Shown here one piece after another: positions 11,262 through 17,135 of a stretch of DNA of 42,761 bases (its first letter is position 1; every line of letters begins with the position of its first letter). Under the pieces are notes generated by a model. That model worked only from the letters and a program-made list of their open reading frames with translations. It had not been told where the DNA came from and ran no database searches. This stretch comes from Chloroflexota bacterium (GTDB lineage: Bacteria > Chloroflexota > Limnocylindria > Limnocylindrales > CSP1-4): NCBI GenBank assembly GCA_003153755.1, contig PMBG01000045.1:1-42761 (forward strand). Direction: 5' to 3'. A program made the translations under genes and the position numbers.

Positions 11262-11466
11262 AGCACGTCAATCGAATAAAGCCGCTCGATTCAGGGAAGC
11301 CGGTGCAAAACCGGCGCTGTCGCGCAACTGTAAGCGAGGAGCGGCTGGTCCCGAGCCATTGGGCACACGCCCGATGCTCAGCCACTGGGGAAACCCGGGA
11401 AGGCGACCAGCCAGCGTAGTTATCGCCAACGCCGATGACTCACATTCGCGAGCCAGGAGACCTGAC
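11262..11466 (+). ncRNA. Cobalamin (B12) riboswitch
   Basis: The aptamer core is clear. GGGAAGCCGGTGCAAAACC (from 11294) is the GGGAA-NC-GGTG-NAAA-CC element. It is followed by GGCGCTGTCGCGCAACTGTAA, the AGCCACTG segment (11380-11387), GGGAAACCCGGGAAGGCG, and the B12 box AGCCAGGAGACCTG (11451-11464). The 5' boundary is approximate. Riboswitches of this class bind adenosyl- or aquo-cobalamin and lower expression of the downstream operon. The genes that follow are an ECF transporter and two secreted proteins, so the operon is most likely a B12 uptake system. The expression platform is listed separately. Confidence 0.93.
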
Positions 11467-11479
11467 CGAACGGCGAAGG

Positions 11480-11499
11480 CCATTGGCCAGCCAATGGCT
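11480..11499 (+). promoter_or_regulatory. Hairpin between the aptamer and the first gene
   Basis: GCCATTGG, loop CCAG, CCAATGGC: an 8-bp perfect stem about 15 bases after the B12 box. No T-run follows, so it is not an intrinsic terminator by itself; it may be part of the switching structure. Confidence 0.4.
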
Positions 11500-11531
11500 C
11501 AGTCACCCACCTGCGCGGATCGGTTGGGCGG

Positions 11532-11579
11532 CCTCCGGCGGCGAGGTCCCTTCCGGCAGGCGGGCTATGCCGCCGGAGG
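11532..11579 (+). promoter_or_regulatory. Shine-Dalgarno-sequestering stem of the B12 operon
   Basis: CCTCCGGCGGC (11532-11542) is perfectly complementary over 11 bp to GCCGCCGGAGG (11569-11579). The latter contains the GGAGG ribosome-binding site 4 bases before the ATG at 11584. This pairing would hide the site and block translation. An upstream GCCGCCGGC (11242-11250) could compete for the same anti-Shine-Dalgarno strand. The sequence therefore points to translational rather than transcriptional control by the riboswitch. Confidence 0.6.
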
Positions 11580-11583
11580 AACA

Positions 11584-13026
11584 ATGCGAAGACTCGTCGT
11601 CGCCAGCGCGATACTGGCGGCACTCCTCACGTGGCCTATTGCGCAGGCCGCGGCTTCCCCCTCGAACCTCGCACTTGCGGGCACCGATTCGCAGCGTGCC
11701 ACAGCCGCGCTCGAGTACCTGCTCGCCGCCCAGGGCACCAACGGGTCGATCGACGGCTCGATTGGCGAGACTGCCGATTTCGTGATCGGCGCGGCGGCGG
11801 CCGGCTATGACCCGTCCACGTTGAAGGGCTGCGCCGGCGGCACTGGCGCGCTCTCGTACCTCGCCACGGCGTCCGACGGCGCTACAGGAGACGCGGCCAA
11901 GACCGGCAAGACGATCCTGGCCGTCGTGGCGGCAGGGAGCGATCCGGCCGCATTCTCGGGACGCGATCTGTCGGCGCGACTCGCCGCGGTATACGGCTCG
12001 GCCACCGGTTCCTACGGCGACGGAGCCACCTTCAGCCAGGCGTTCGCGATCCTGGCGGTGACCGCTTCCGGCGGCTCCGTGCCGGCGGCGGCAACGGCCA
12101 GGCTTGCCGCACTTCAAGGTTCGGACGGCAGCTGGAGCTACGGCACGACACCCGCGACCGCCGGTAACGGCGACACGAACTCGACGGCGATAGCGCTCAT
12201 TGCGCTCGACTCGGCGGGCGTCCACACGGCCGACGCCGCGGGCCTCGCCTACCTCCACACTCAGCAGCTCGCCGACGGCGGTTTTCCGTACCAGAACTCG
12301 TCGACGTACGGGCCGCCCGCCAGCGACCCCGACTCGGACGCGTCCGTCCTGGAGGCCATGGTCGCCGCGGGTCAGAACCCCGAATCGGCGGGCTGGACGG
12401 CGACCGGCGGCACGGTGTTCACTCACCTTCGATCGATGCAGGGGCCGGACGGCGGTTTCGAGTACCCGGGTTCCGGCGAAAGCGCCTTCACCACGAGCCA
12501 GGTTCCGGCAGCGCTGATGCGCAAGCCATACGCGGCGGCGGTCACGTTCACAGCCGGCCGAGCGGTCCCGACGACGGCCTGCCCCGCTCCAAGCCCCACG
12601 ACGACGCCGACCCCAACCGCGACGCCGACACCGACGCCGACGCCGACGCCAACAGCGACGGCGACGCGAACGCCAACGCCCACGCCGACGAAGAAGCCGA
12701 CGCCGAAGCCCACGACCAAGCCCACGACCAAGCAGGTCGCCGTTGCGACGTCCGCGCCGGAGCCGACCGATACGCCCGGCCCCACGCCGGCTCCCACGGC
12801 CCAGCCGACCGCGAGCCCAACGCAGTCCGCCACGCAAGCAGTCGCCGGGATCACGAACCACTCGTCCCCGGCGCCGAGCGCGCCCGGAGACCAACCCAAG
12901 TCGCCCGGCTCCGACGGTGGAGTCCCCGTGGCGTTGATCTACCTCGCCGCCGCCCTCGGCGGCCTGGCCGTGGTGGCCGGCGCCGGGTGGCTCTACGTTG
13001 AGCGGCCCTGGGAGCAGCGCCGATGA
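11584..13026 (+). CDS. Secreted alpha/alpha-toroid (squalene-cyclase/intrinsic-factor-like) protein, membrane anchored
   Basis: 480 residues. A signal peptide (1-25, cut near AQAAA) leads to about 290 residues of repeats with the prenyltransferase/squalene-oxidase pattern. Examples are YLLAAQGTNGSIDGSI, ARLAALQGSDGSWSYG, AYLHTQQLADGGFPYQ and HLRSMQGPDGGFEYPG, each followed by a helix of the kind S/TAIALIAL. The alpha-domain of gastric intrinsic factor and transcobalamin has the same fold. No DxDD-type cyclase motif is seen, so binding rather than catalysis is likely. A long Thr-Pro linker (about 335-400) and a C-terminal TM helix (about 450-472) with Arg-rich tail place it at the cell surface. 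It is the first gene after a B12 riboswitch and overlaps the next gene by 4 bases. I infer cobalamin capture. Confidence 0.85.
   Translation: MRRLVVASAILAALLTWPIAQAAASPSNLALAGTDSQRATAALEYLLAAQGTNGSIDGSIGETADFVIGAAAAGYDPSTLKGCAGGTGALSYLATASDGATGDAAKTGKTILAVVAAGSDPAAFSGRDLSARLAAVYGSATGSYGDGATFSQAFAILAVTASGGSVPAAATARLAALQGSDGSWSYGTTPATAGNGDTNSTAIALIALDSAGVHTADAAGLAYLHTQQLADGGFPYQNSSTYGPPASDPDSDASVLEAMVAAGQNPESAGWTATGGTVFTHLRSMQGPDGGFEYPGSGESAFTTSQVPAALMRKPYAAAVTFTAGRAVPTTACPAPSPTTTPTPTATPTPTPTPTPTATATRTPTPTPTKKPTPKPTTKPTTKQVAVATSAPEPTDTPGPTPAPTAQPTASPTQSATQAVAGITNHSSPAPSAPGDQPKSPGSDGGVPVALIYLAAALGGLAVVAGAGWLYVERPWEQRR
12595..12735 (+). repeat. Thr-Pro codon repeat (low-complexity linker)
   Basis: Near-perfect tandem runs of ACGCCG/ACGCCA/ACGCCC encode a Thr-Pro linker between the toroid domain and the membrane anchor, ending in Lys-Pro-Thr units. 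It is a spacer across the cell wall, not a CRISPR or VNTR locus. Confidence 0.7.
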
Positions 13027-13886
13027 CCAGGTTCCTCCGATTGGGATTAGCACTTGGACTGGCGTCGTTCATGGCCGGGCTCGTTTCACTCGCGCCGGCC
13101 TCTCCGGCAGTCTCGAGTTGCGCCGCCGCGGGGCCGAACCATGCGGCCGTGGTAATCCAGCACGGCGACGGCTCGGTCCTCAAACGCTGCGTGGACTTCG
13201 ACGGGGCCACGATCACCGGCGAGGCGACGCTCAACCAAACGGGGATCGCATGGTCCGGCCAGGTCTTCGGCGGGTTCGGGAACGCCGTGTGCGCGGTCGA
13301 TAGCGAACCGGCACGCTATTCCAGCTGCCCGGGCCAGGACTACTACTGGGCCGTGTTCGTGTCGCGAGGCGGCGGCGCGTGGCAGCTATCCGCGTTGGGC
13401 ATATCGTCGCTGACGCTTGCCGACGGCGACGCCGAGGGCTTCAGATACGAACCGGCGGCAGGGGCCGTGCTCGCGCCCGCGACGCCCGCGAGTGTGTGCG
13501 CGGCGGCCACTCCGGCGCCGACTCCGGCGGCCACGCGGGCGGCCACTCCGACTCACGGCGCAGGCACGACGGCCGGTGCCACGGCCGGCGCCACGACCGG
13601 TGCCGCGGCCGGCGCGACGGCCGGCGCCACGGCCGGGGCCGCGGACTCCGGCTCGGGCTCGCCCATCGCGGCCGCGGACTCGGGTTCCGTGGAGATCAAC
13701 GGCGCCACGTCCGGCGCAACGTCCGCCGAAACCACGCCCGATCCCGCGGCGCGGACCGCGGCAACGCCCGCGTCGGACTCGGGGCACGGTCCCGACCCGG
13801 GCTTGGTCCTCACGGCGATCGCCGCCGGCGGCCTGGGAGGGCTCCTGATCATCCGGGTCCTTACCGCTCGCCGCCGAACTCGGTGA
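13023..13886 (+). CDS. Secreted transcobalamin C-terminal-like (DUF4430-like) protein, membrane anchored
   Basis: 287 residues; the ATG overlaps the stop of the toroid gene. A signal peptide covers about 1-31. A Cys-rich domain follows at about 32-160: KRCVDFDGATITGEATLNQTG, FGNAVCAVDSEP, SSCPGQDYYWAVFVSRGGG, and a closing LTLADGDAEGFRYEP. This matches the order and spacing of DUF4430/transcobalamin-like C-terminal domains (aromatic-rich strand, then a DGD turn and a final strand). A Thr/Ala/Gly linker (about 165-255) and a TM helix (about 262-282) with RRRTR tail anchor it outside. In human intrinsic factor the alpha toroid and this beta domain are one chain holding cobalamin between them; here they would be two proteins. 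The function is inferred. Confidence 0.8.
   Translation: MTRFLRLGLALGLASFMAGLVSLAPASPAVSSCAAAGPNHAAVVIQHGDGSVLKRCVDFDGATITGEATLNQTGIAWSGQVFGGFGNAVCAVDSEPARYSSCPGQDYYWAVFVSRGGGAWQLSALGISSLTLADGDAEGFRYEPAAGAVLAPATPASVCAAATPAPTPAATRAATPTHGAGTTAGATAGATTGAAAGATAGATAGAADSGSGSPIAAADSGSVEINGATSGATSAETTPDPAARTAATPASDSGHGPDPGLVLTAIAAGGLGGLLIIRVLTARRRTR
13555..13640 (+). repeat. Short tandem repeat encoding Gly-Ala-Thr-Ala units
   Basis: About seven imperfect 12-base units of the type GCCGGCGCCACG encode the linker of the DUF4430-like protein. Such units change copy number easily, so linker length may vary between strains. Confidence 0.6.
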
Positions 13887-14767
13887 GCGAGACCACGTCC
13901 GCCGATCGCGCCACCGGCCTCGCCCGGCGCGCGTGGATCGTATGGTCGCTGGCCGCCGTCGTGGCGGCGCTTTCGACGGACAACCCGGTGTACCGCGGTC
14001 TCGTGACGCTGGCCGCGCTCGACGTCCTTCTGACGTGGCTGCCCCGAGGCCGGAGCCTGCGGAGGCTGGGTGCCGCCGTGGCCTTCTCGGCGCTGTTCGC
14101 CGTGCTCGTCAATGTGGTGGTGAGCCACACCGGGGCGGACGTCCTCTTCCGAATACCGGATGCCATCCCCGTGTTCGGGGGCCCCGTCACCGTGGAGTCG
14201 GTCGCCTTTGGGGTGACCGTCGGGCTCGGGCTGACGGCCGCGCTCGTCGCCGTCGCTCCCCTATCGCTGATCCTGGAGTCGCACGACATCGTGGACGCCC
14301 TGCCCCGTCCCCTGGAACGCACCGGCATCGCGCTTGCGACGGCGATGAACCTGGTCTCCGGTTTCGGCCGGACTTTCGCTTCCGTGCGCGACGCGCAACG
14401 AATGCGCGGCTGGCGCCCTCGAGGAATCCGGTCGTGGAACGAGGTGATGGTGCCGGTCGTCCTGACCGCGATCGAGGACTCCGTCCTGCTGGCCGAGGCG
14501 ATGGAGTCGCGCGGGTTCGGGGCGGGACCCAGGACGAGCTTCGCAAGCCATCGATGGCGCCTGTGGGACGTCGCCGTCTGCGCCACCTCGGTGGTCGCCG
14601 CGACGCTCTTCATCGTCCTGAGATTCGCCGGCGCTCCCGTGGACTGGTACCCGTACCCCACGCTTGCGCTCCCGGAGGTCAATCCGATCCTCGTCGCGGC
14701 CTGTCTTGCCCTGGCATTGCCCGCCTTCGCGCCGCCGGCGCCGCAGGTTCGGGAGCCGGTCAGATGA
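13883..14767 (+). CDS. ecfT: ECF transporter transmembrane protein EcfT
   Basis: 294 residues from the GTG at 13883, which overlaps the previous stop codon. It has about 6-7 hydrophobic helices. Two cytoplasmic coupling motifs with the family's Ala/x-Arg-Gly pattern are present: QRMRGW at about 172-177 and MESRGF at about 207-212. EcfT uses these to touch the two ATPase subunits and pass motion to the S component. Genes for both partners follow with 4-base overlaps, so this is a dedicated (group I) ECF module rather than a shared one. The substrate should be cobalamin or a precursor, from the riboswitch upstream. Confidence 0.93.
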   Translation: MSETTSADRATGLARRAWIVWSLAAVVAALSTDNPVYRGLVTLAALDVLLTWLPRGRSLRRLGAAVAFSALFAVLVNVVVSHTGADVLFRIPDAIPVFGGPVTVESVAFGVTVGLGLTAALVAVAPLSLILESHDIVDALPRPLERTGIALATAMNLVSGFGRTFASVRDAQRMRGWRPRGIRSWNEVMVPVVLTAIEDSVLLAEAMESRGFGAGPRTSFASHRWRLWDVAVCATSVVAATLFIVLRFAGAPVDWYPYPTLALPEVNPILVAACLALALPAFAPPAPQVREPVR

Positions 14768-16371
14768 GCGGACCGATCGCGCGCCTGGAGCACCTCACCT
14801 ACTGGTACCCGAACGCGGCCTCGCCGGCCCTGCGCGACGTGACCCTCGAGATCGAGCCCGGGCTCACGCTCGTCGCCGGTGGCTCGGGCGGCGGCAAGTC
14901 CACGTTGCTACGCGTATTCGACGGGCTGGTGCCGCAGTTCCACGGTGGCCGCATATCCGGCTCGGCGATCGTCGCCGGACTCGACGCGTTTCGGACACCG
15001 ATACCGAGGCTCGCACGGCACGCGGGTCTCGTCTTCCAGGATGTGGAGACGCAGTCGGTCTACGGCACCGTCGAGCGCGAGATCGCCTTCGGGCTCGAGA
15101 ACGCGGGTATGGCCCGGCCCGAAATGCACGACCGCGTCGACGAGGCGCTGCACCTGCTGGGCATCGAGAAGCTGCGCGTTCGGCGCCTGGCAACGCTGTC
15201 CGGGGGCGAGCGGCAGCGTGTCCAGCTTGCCGCGGTGCTGGCACTCCGACCGCAGCTCGTGGCGCTCGACGAGCCCACGTCGCAGCTGGATCGCGAAGGC
15301 GCGGATGCCGTGCTGGCCGCGTGCCTGAGCCTTGCGACACGAGGACGCTCGGTGCTGCTCGCGGAGCACCGGCTCGAGCAGGTGCTCCCCGCGGCCGACC
15401 GGTTGCTGTTGATGGAGAACGGCAGTGCGCTGGGGCCGGGTCCGGTCCGCGAGCTGGCGGCGCGCCTCGCGAGTCCCCCGCCGCTGCTGGAGCTCGCGAT
15501 ACGGGCGGGATGGATGCCGCTACCGCTGACCGTGGAGGAAGCGGCGAACTCGGTCTCGCGCGATCTAAACCTCAGCCATCCCGCCGCCCGGTCCGTGCCG
15601 CGTGGCACCGGGGACGAGCCTGCCTGGGAGGCGCGAGACCTGACCGTCGGCCCCGCGGCGGATCCGGTCCTGGAGGGCTTCTCGTTCGCGGCCGCTCAGG
15701 GCGAGGTCGTCGCGATAGTCGGAGCGAATGGATCGGGCAAGACGACGCTCCTCCGGACGCTCGCCGGACTGCTGCCGCCGCTCTCCGGCACCGTGCAGAG
15801 GCATGGAGGCCGTGCCGGCTACGTGCCGCAGAACCCCGCTTCGATGCTCCATCTCCCCACGCTCAGGGCGGAGGTGGAACTCACAGTCCGCCGCCTTGGC
15901 GTGACCACAGCCGCCGAAGCCGGCACCGACACCGCGGACGGAGTCCTCGCCGATTTCGGCCTTGCGGACCTCGCCGGCAGATACCCGCGCGACCTCTCGT
16001 CGGGTGAGCGTCAGCGCGGGGCGATCGCGGCGACGCTTGCCGGCCGTCCCGATTTCGCGTTGCTCGACGAGCCCACGCGCGGCATGGATCTCGCGGCCCG
16101 CCGATCGCTCGGCGCCTACATTCGGCGCTTCAGCGCGCGGCCGTCGTCGGTCGTGATTGCCACACACGACATCGATCTTGCCGCCGAGGTCGCGGACCGT
16201 GTCGTTCTCCTGAAGGACGGCCGGGCCGTGGACCTGGGTCCGCCGGAGGTCGCGTTCGCGGCCGGGTCGGAGTGGGTGACGCAGATCGGACGTCTGTTCC
16301 CCGGCGGTCCGGTCACGGTCGGCGGAGCGCTGAGCGCGCTCGACCGAGACATCGCGCGAGGGCGGAGATGA
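14764..16371 (+). CDS. ecfA: Fused ECF ATPase (EcfA-EcfA')
   Basis: 535 residues with two complete ABC ATPase domains in one chain. Domain 1: Walker A GGSGGGKST (about 39-47), Q-loop FQDVETQ, signature LSGGERQR, Walker B LVALDEPTS, switch His in LLAEHRLEQ. Domain 2: Walker A GANGSGKTT (about 320-328), Q-loop YVPQNP, signature LSSGERQR, Walker B FALLDEPTRG, switch His in VIATHDID. Both sites look competent. It powers the ECF transporter from the cytoplasmic face. A fused pair is known in many actinobacterial and Chloroflexota ECF systems. Start and stop overlap its neighbours by 4 bases. Confidence 0.95.
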   Translation: MSGPIARLEHLTYWYPNAASPALRDVTLEIEPGLTLVAGGSGGGKSTLLRVFDGLVPQFHGGRISGSAIVAGLDAFRTPIPRLARHAGLVFQDVETQSVYGTVEREIAFGLENAGMARPEMHDRVDEALHLLGIEKLRVRRLATLSGGERQRVQLAAVLALRPQLVALDEPTSQLDREGADAVLAACLSLATRGRSVLLAEHRLEQVLPAADRLLLMENGSALGPGPVRELAARLASPPPLLELAIRAGWMPLPLTVEEAANSVSRDLNLSHPAARSVPRGTGDEPAWEARDLTVGPAADPVLEGFSFAAAQGEVVAIVGANGSGKTTLLRTLAGLLPPLSGTVQRHGGRAGYVPQNPASMLHLPTLRAEVELTVRRLGVTTAAEAGTDTADGVLADFGLADLAGRYPRDLSSGERQRGAIAATLAGRPDFALLDEPTRGMDLAARRSLGAYIRRFSARPSSVVIATHDIDLAAEVADRVVLLKDGRAVDLGPPEVAFAAGSEWVTQIGRLFPGGPVTVGGALSALDRDIARGRR

Positions 16372-17135
16372 GACTCCTCGCTACGTCCCTGGTCGGGGCG
16401 GCGCTCTTCCTGTGGCCGTTCCTGGGTTCCGGGCTTCCGGCGGAGACCCCGGCGCTGGCGATGACGATCGGGGCCGTTGCCATGCTGGTGGCAATGGAGA
16501 CGGGCTCGCGACGTCTTGACTCGGGCCGGCTGGCCCTGCTCGCCGCGCTCGCTGCCGTGGACGCGGCTTTGAGGCTGGCGATGGTCAATGGCGTAGGCGG
16601 CTTCAGCCCCATCTTCTTCCTGGTTATTGCCGCGGGTTACGAGTTCGGGCCAAGCTACGGCTTCCTCGTTGGGTCGTTCGCCCTGCTGGTATCCGCCCTG
16701 GTCACGGGCGGCGTGGGTCCGTGGCTGCCGTACGAGACATTCGCCGTCGGCTGGGTGGGCGTTGCGGCCGGCGTTACAGGGCAAGTCGTCCGACGCGTGC
16801 GTCCGGCGCGGGTCGGCTGGCTCCCAAATCGCGTCGACATCGGCGTGCTGGTGGCCGTCGCCATCGTGACCGGTTTCGCCTACGGAGCCCTGACCGACAT
16901 TTACGGCTGGGTGGCCTTCTACCGCGGCGTTGAGAACATCGGCTGGATCCCGGGGCTGTCGGCCGGGGAGACGCTCTCGCGGTACGTCCGCTACTACGCC
17001 CTGACGTCGGTTGCCTGGGATGCGTTCAGGGCCGTCGGCGATGCGCTCGTGGTCCTGGCATTCGGTACGCCCGTGCTTGCGGCGCTCGGCCGGCTGCGCG
17101 CCCGTCTCGGTTACGAGATCGTCGCGGACTCCTGA
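16368..17135 (+). CDS. ECF transporter S component (substrate-specific), probably cobalamin
   Basis: 255 residues, about 6 TM helices, last gene of the B12-riboswitch operon. The central GGFSPIFFLVIAAGYEFGPS and FLVGSFALLVSALVTGG segments are typical of S components in ECF operons, with the small-residue packing that lets the S component bind EcfT. The helices after PWLPYETFAVGWVGV are followed by an Arg-rich cytoplasmic loop. Specificity for cobalamin is inferred from the riboswitch and neighbouring capture proteins; sequence alone does not place it with certainty in the CbrT group. Its last 25 bases overlap the 3' end of the convergent glycosyltransferase gene. Confidence 0.88.
   Translation: MRLLATSLVGAALFLWPFLGSGLPAETPALAMTIGAVAMLVAMETGSRRLDSGRLALLAALAAVDAALRLAMVNGVGGFSPIFFLVIAAGYEFGPSYGFLVGSFALLVSALVTGGVGPWLPYETFAVGWVGVAAGVTGQVVRRVRPARVGWLPNRVDIGVLVAVAIVTGFAYGALTDIYGWVAFYRGVENIGWIPGLSAGETLSRYVRYYALTSVAWDAFRAVGDALVVLAFGTPVLAALGRLRARLGYEIVADS

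Follow-up and report, generated by a model that had tools for sequence, protein, structure and literature searches.

A candidate two-chain B12 scavenging operon of Chloroflexota, with likeness to bacterial and animal cobalamin carriers

Described B12 carriers and the Chloroflexota locus

Bacterial proteins that pair a transcobalamin-like beta-grasp domain with a toroid were described by Burroughs et al. in 2007, in operons with CbiO-like and CbiQ-like genes and in hosts without B12 (cobalamin) synthesis. A role in B12 scavenging was predicted for them, and the animal carrier was proposed to have been acquired from low-GC Gram-positive bacteria (PMC1796856). Here we analyze a comparable locus in a 42,761-nucleotide stretch of the genome of a soil bacterium of the Chloroflexota (GTDB lineage Limnocylindria, Limnocylindrales, CSP1-4; assembly GCA_003153755.1, contig PMBG01000045.1, positions 1 to 42,761; "the window" below). 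It consists of a cobalamin riboswitch, genes for two secreted proteins and an energy-coupling factor (ECF) transporter. The window operon agrees with the 2007 description in its secreted SLBB plus toroid pair, its CbiO/CbiQ operon context and its host's B12 auxotrophy.

In the animal carriers, the beta domain is the first to take up cobalamin and the alpha domain closes afterwards, the two domains associating only in the presence of cobalamin; the beta domain alone occurs in some organisms (PMC11107200). ECF-CbrT of Lactobacillus delbrueckii is a proven ECF B12 transporter (PMC5997447). About 10% of B12-uptaking organisms lack a BtuFCD-type system in a survey of 2009 (PMC2667541).

The initial annotation had read the locus as a two-piece B12 capture system, and sequence, fold and genomic context support this reading overall. 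We consider it probable (roughly 0.78) that the operon serves B12 (corrinoid) scavenging, two anchored halves sandwiching the corrinoid and delivering it to the ECF S component. The features of the locus are as follows (window positions).

11293-11463, + strand: cobalamin (B12) riboswitch aptamer RF00174 (cmscan 70.2 bits, E-value = 1.8e-15, model positions 45-169)
11584-13026, + strand: gene 1 (protein P1), secreted alpha/alpha toroid with signal peptide, Thr-Pro stalk and C-terminal membrane anchor (translation, AlphaFold2, structural matches)
11659-12573, + strand: toroid portion of gene 1
13023-13886, + strand: gene 2 (protein P2), secreted SCO2322-like beta domain with Gly-Ala-Thr stalk and C-terminal membrane anchor (translation; NF040672; predicted fold from a fused relative)
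about 13131-13448, + strand: beta domain of gene 2
13883-14767, + strand: gene 3, EcfT (CbiQ-like membrane coupling subunit), GTG start (PF02361, E-value = 2.5e-7, above cut-off)
14764-16371, + strand: gene 4, fused EcfA-EcfA' ATPase (PF00005 in two stretches, E-value = 3.9e-49)
16368-17135, + strand: gene 5, ECF S component, the substrate-binding membrane protein (PF12822, E-value = 6e-8, above cut-off)

The riboswitch (RF00174 cut-off 31.5 bits) is the sole Rfam match within the window and the only cobalamin riboswitch in the genome, which is 69% complete. All four junctions among genes 1-5 (11584-17135) are 4-base overlaps. The Rfam match and the translated coordinates thus agree with the B12 riboswitch and five overlapping genes annotated initially, as do the Pfam assignments of genes 3-5: CbiQ/EcfT, two ATP-binding cassette (ABC) ATPase domains and PF12822, together a full ECF set of EcfT, two EcfA domains and S component. 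The best matches of gene 4 are the ECF ATPase models TIGR04520 and TIGR04521, both under their cut-offs, and gene 5 resembles FolT (E-value = 3.8e-4). The arrangement of riboswitch and five genes is far from chance, as every genus member with a sufficiently long contig shows it, except one species without gene 1. The interval between riboswitch and gene 1 holds a perfect 9-base inverted repeat (11479-11498, GCCATTGGC-CA-GCCAATGGC), possibly part of the expression platform; no intrinsic terminator was found.

The two secreted proteins

The translation of gene 1 reads as signal peptide, toroid, Thr-Pro stalk and C-terminal membrane segment, and that of gene 2 as signal peptide, Cys-containing domain, Gly-Ala-Thr stalk and C-terminal membrane segment, in line with the proposal of two separate membrane-anchored proteins on stalks. 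A Pfam scan assigned no domain to either window protein.

The AlphaFold2 model of P1, built with 41 family sequences, is an alpha/alpha toroid (predicted local distance difference test, pLDDT, 93.9; predicted template modelling score, pTM, 0.91). In VIA-align comparisons the highest score was obtained with squalene-hopene cyclase (Z 24.6), followed by intrinsic factor (Z 21.6, root-mean-square deviation (rmsd) 3.0 Å across 243 residues), haptocorrin (Z 21.0) and transcobalamin (Z about 20). Gene 1 had been annotated as a secreted toroid without the cyclase acid motif and comparable with intrinsic factor; the model bears out the toroid fold. The window protein lacks the DxDD motif, as do 40 of the 41 aligned sequences. 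Since the toroid is similar to both cyclases and carriers, and slightly closer to the former, its fold alone cannot decide the function. A Foldseek search with the gene 1 toroid alone placed transcobalamin at rank 19 (E-value = 1.2e-4). The gene 1 sequence matched nothing meaningful in the PDB, and the 60 best PDB matches of its profile include cyclases and no B12 carriers. SQHop_cyclase_C is matched by 35 of the 41 family members. The Cobalamin_bind family (PF01122) has no match in the window proteins and weak matches in 4 of the 41 gene 1 relatives, the best listed scoring 22.2 bits against a cut-off of 25. Some gene 1 homologues carry two toroid domains in tandem (L042, L055:4622-6883, L057:4791-7037 and L079:5844-8207).

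The gene 2 family (49 members, i.e. the window copy and 48 relatives) exhibits no meaningful Pfam match of any kind, and its profile has no match in the PDB. The NCBIfam model NF040672 (SCO2322), whose name carries no function, matches 42 of the 49 members; the window copy matches it with an E-value of 0.0017, under the curated cut-off.

The relation between the two proteins is revealed by natural fusions. Both domains lie within one chain in five proteins, in the order toroid-beta in L073, L078 and L122 and beta-toroid in L069 and L080; toroid-toroid-beta chains were found in G218, G248 and G382. The fusion of both domains in relatives shows that genes 1 and 2 encode the two halves of a single unit. 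The carrier-like single chain with the toroid first, split into separate genes in the window, is that of L073, L078 and L122. In the model of the L078 fusion (pLDDT 88.3, pTM 0.69), the beta domain has two hairpins with a short helix between them, then further strands. Burroughs et al. characterize the transcobalamin clade by a hairpin placed after the helix (PMC1796856), and the L078 beta domain has this feature.

A Foldseek search of the PDB with the L078 fusion returned transcobalamin, haptocorrin and intrinsic factor chains as all of its 14 best matches (E-values from 2.8e-10 to 4e-8; the query has 441 residues and the alignments span about 440 columns). A contribution of the beta domain to this modelled match is probable, since with the toroid of gene 1 as sole query transcobalamin ranked no higher than 19th, a comparison between queries from different species and thus not a strict control. 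If the modelled beta domain matches as well, the carriers would be expected to move ahead of the cyclases, as they do. VIA-align with the fusion listed toroids only, because one domain fills the list. The models thus support a transcobalamin-type beta-grasp domain for the gene 2 family, as predicted from the fused relative.

Other Chloroflexota carry a different protein in the place of gene 2. In three other genomes of this phylum (L172, L174, L176), a DUF4430 lipoprotein recognized by Pfam lies directly 5' of EcfT-EcfAA-S; a toroid gene precedes it in L172 and L174, and the contig ends there in L176. In L177, toroid and DUF4430 form a single chain. Since these lipoproteins occupy the gene 2 position before EcfT-EcfAA-S, one and the same operon slot holds DUF4430 in one of two sister lineages and the gene 2 family in the second. 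An hhalign comparison of the gene 2 family with these bacterial DUF4430 domains gave a probability of 71% (pairwise E-value = 3.6e-5). The link between gene 2 and DUF4430 rests on the fused-relative model, this profile-profile comparison and gene position. The family fold thus agrees with the DUF4430-like partner expected initially. In L174 and L177 a regulator gene of winged-helix (MarR-like) look adjoins the toroid gene.

In Streptomyces and Kitasatospora, profile scores show the toroid to be a circular permutation of the arrangement in the window protein. Nine toroids of these genera (L099, L109, L110, L111, L114, L118, L119, L121, L123) all prefer a profile cut at domain residue 110 and rejoined, gaining 28-65 bits, and normal toroid members score highest with the uncut profile. 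Of 19 gene 2 homologues from these and other actinobacteria, 15 lean the same way. As the gain is only about 3-10 bits, a permutation of the beta domain in Streptomyces-type members is suggestive only.

Distribution, riboswitches and B12 physiology

A tblastn search with the S component, one genome per species, yielded 544 relatives, of which the best 80 loci were surveyed upstream; 52 of these have at least 8 kb of upstream sequence. Among the 52, gene 2 was found in 48: together with gene 1 in 34 and alone in 14. Operon-bearing loci belong to Chloroflexota, Dormibacterota and Actinomycetota, including Streptomyces. Genus relatives with long enough contigs retain the order riboswitch, gene 1, gene 2, EcfT, EcfAA, S, with one exception.

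Riboswitches were located by Rfam scans, since searching for the B12 box as a plain text motif overlooked the majority. Of 16 genus and family loci, 13 have a cobalamin riboswitch before gene 1; in the scanned loci from the three phyla, one is present upstream of the operon in 28 of 35, usually 20-230 bases from the first gene. Among the seven loci lacking it, the contigs of L080, L116 and L117 begin inside gene 1; in L122, L099, L110 and L114 no cobalamin riboswitch scored above the gathering score. No other vitamin riboswitch accompanies the related operons scanned, so that B12 control, as the initial annotation required, prevails among them. In the seven genus genomes, all eight cobalamin riboswitches precede a homologue of gene 1 or gene 2.

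Several variants of the layout were seen. In L068, L091, L095 and L108, genes 1 and 2 are divergent from the ECF genes and a cobalamin riboswitch precedes gene 1, L095 having a riboswitch on each side. Ten actinomycetotal loci (L082-L084, L086, L094, L096, L101, L104, L124, L126) carry gene 2 and ECF genes with no toroid gene within the stretch examined. The genome G012 has a second, solitary toroid gene (L178:3662-4948) under its own cobalamin riboswitch and without ECF genes. In the congener G002 (L035, L181), the riboswitch stands directly before gene 2.

The physiology of the genus is that of a B12 consumer. CbiC, a marker of corrin synthesis, is absent from all seven genus genomes, and the same model finds matches in 7 of 14 control genomes; B12-binding enzymes occur in 7/7. 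Co-occurrence with a lack of BtuBFCD had been suggested initially as a check: no FecCD-type (BtuC-like) permease scored above the cut-off in six of the seven genomes, and a complete BtuF/FecCD-like ABC permease locus occurs only in G002, the sole congener without gene 1. The window's genome encodes one PF01497 protein, without signal peptide and with no permease or ATPase gene adjoining. As this genome is 69% complete, the absences rest mainly on the six genus relatives, which are 90-95% complete.

Proposed function, alternatives and known counterparts

We infer corrinoid binding and its sequence, closure in trans and transfer to the S component, in the following scheme. In a host without corrin ring synthesis, low internal cobalamin would let the riboswitch permit expression of the operon. 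The two surface proteins, on long flexible membrane stalks, would correspond to the alpha half (a toroid) and the beta half (beta-grasp) of a clamp of the transcobalamin/intrinsic-factor type, here separated. One half, the beta domain in the animal carriers, would bind the corrinoid first and the other would close over it. The loaded clamp, kept near the membrane, would hand the corrinoid to the S component, and EcfT/EcfAA would power import. That several lineages have gene 2 but no gene 1 is consistent with the beta half taking the lead. A broader claim, to which we lean with less assurance, is that a hitherto unrecognized SCO2322-like beta-grasp family and a separately encoded and anchored toroid form a two-tether B12 clamp closing in trans, a split counterpart of intrinsic factor across Chloroflexota, Dormibacterota and Actinomycetota, with a permuted toroid (perhaps beta domain) in Streptomyces.

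Several observations weigh against the B12 clamp. The transcobalamin-type beta fold comes from the model of the fused relative L078, and the window copy of gene 2 would share it as a member of the family. The mutual placement of the two domains in that model was not predicted (rmsd 22 Å, pTM 0.69). Pfam DUF4430 (PF14478) matches none of the 49 gene 2 family members; of the initial description of gene 2, the secreted Cys-containing domain stands and the DUF4430 pattern, by Pfam, does not. The P1 toroid is by fold slightly nearer to squalene-hopene cyclases (Z 24.6) than to B12 carriers. Gene 5 exhibits only a weak likeness to CbrT (6fnp, E-value = 0.059), and the DUF4430 loci L172, L174, L176 and L177 have no cobalamin riboswitch above the gathering score. 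Finally, some lineages have no gene 1 while retaining gene 2 and the ECF genes, and the congener G002 lacks gene 1 genome-wide; the toroid is therefore not indispensable.

This last point leads to the strongest alternative, corrinoid uptake without a clamp, in which the beta protein alone binds and delivers the ligand and the toroid serves wall tethering, scavenging from B12-binding proteins, or as a decoy. This alternative would account for the congener and the 14 loci (each with 8 kb or more of upstream sequence) in which gene 2 and the ECF genes persist and gene 1 is missing. It would likewise suit the solitary toroid of G012 under its own riboswitch, the initial binding to the beta domain in animal carriers and the beta-only organisms (PMC11107200). 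Repeated fusions in both orders and conserved adjacency argue instead for joint action, and the fused chain as a whole matches two-domain carriers. We regard uptake without a clamp as unlikely, though deserving more weight than the other alternatives.

Much less probable is cobalt uptake, in which the operon would encode a CbiMNQO-like ECF importer of Co2+ with the secreted proteins as accessory metal binders. Cobalamin riboswitches control cobalt transporters too (PMC3766115), gene 3 is CbiQ-like, and gene 5 matches CbiM (PF01891) with 19.5 bits, under the cut-off of 23.1. Against this, the absence of CbiC from the seven genus genomes leaves no B12 synthesis for cobalt to feed, and the secreted pair exhibits the corrinoid-carrier fold in the Foldseek search with the L078 fusion. 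A toroid acting as a terpene/squalene cyclase-like enzyme in lipid metabolism is scarcely credible, for all that squalene-hopene cyclases are the best single-domain structural matches and SQHop_cyclase_C is widespread in the family, given the near-universal absence of DxDD and proteins that are secreted and anchored inside a cobalamin-riboswitch ECF operon.

The B12 clamp proposed here would supply a probable role for two widely distributed groups of secreted proteins that carry no annotation, and a candidate B12 importer for organisms without BtuFCD-type systems. With simple two-chain systems, the proposal that intrinsic factor and transcobalamin stem from bacteria can be put to the test, and the split, fused, reversed, tandem and permuted forms are natural experiments on the working of the alpha/beta sandwich.

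In the open-access literature searched, on SCO2322, on DUF4430 with cobalamin, and on ECF with squalene and riboswitch, no description of the operon was found. The general concept was already published in 2007. The systems of Burroughs et al., combining SLBB (DUF4430) and toroid, share with the present ones the secreted pair, the ECF module genes, the lack of B12 synthesis and fusions in either order. They differ in that the present beta family is undetected by Pfam DUF4430, the halves are separate and membrane-anchored, and control is by a cobalamin riboswitch. Their clade was reported from low-GC Gram-positives, planctomycetes and some euryarchaea, compared with Chloroflexota, Dormibacterota and Actinomycetota here, and their text makes no mention of riboswitches, Chloroflexota, Streptomyces or circular permutation (PMC1796856). 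What is new is the beta family, the split two-chain form in three phyla, the link to the riboswitch and the circularly permuted Streptomyces toroid. As Burroughs et al. published the idea and also proposed an animal acquisition from Gram-positives, the novelty hoped for in the pairing is smaller, and of the two origins first entertained for the likeness to the animal carrier, ancient or convergent, the convergent one is less favoured (PMC1796856).

Of the other relatives, the SCO2322 family (NF040672) resembles gene 2 in that 42 of the 49 gene 2 relatives match its model and its Streptomyces members lie in the same operon; it differs in the sub-cut-off match of the window copy and in the suggestive permutation of the Streptomyces-type domain. 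ECF-CbrT likewise is an ATP-driven ECF-type B12 importer, proposed for organisms without BtuCDF, but there a single ECF module serves CbrT together with other S components, and the available part of its source describes no surface clamp (PMC5997447); the likeness of gene 5 to CbrT is below significance. Pfam and PDB sequence searches gave no significant match of the window proteins to the animal carriers. Intrinsic factor, transcobalamin and haptocorrin nevertheless share with the operon the combination of alpha/alpha toroid and beta-grasp domain, both of which are matched by the modelled natural fusion, with these carriers as its best PDB hits; they differ from the present system in that here two membrane-tethered chains replace the single one and an ECF partner stands in place of the receptor.

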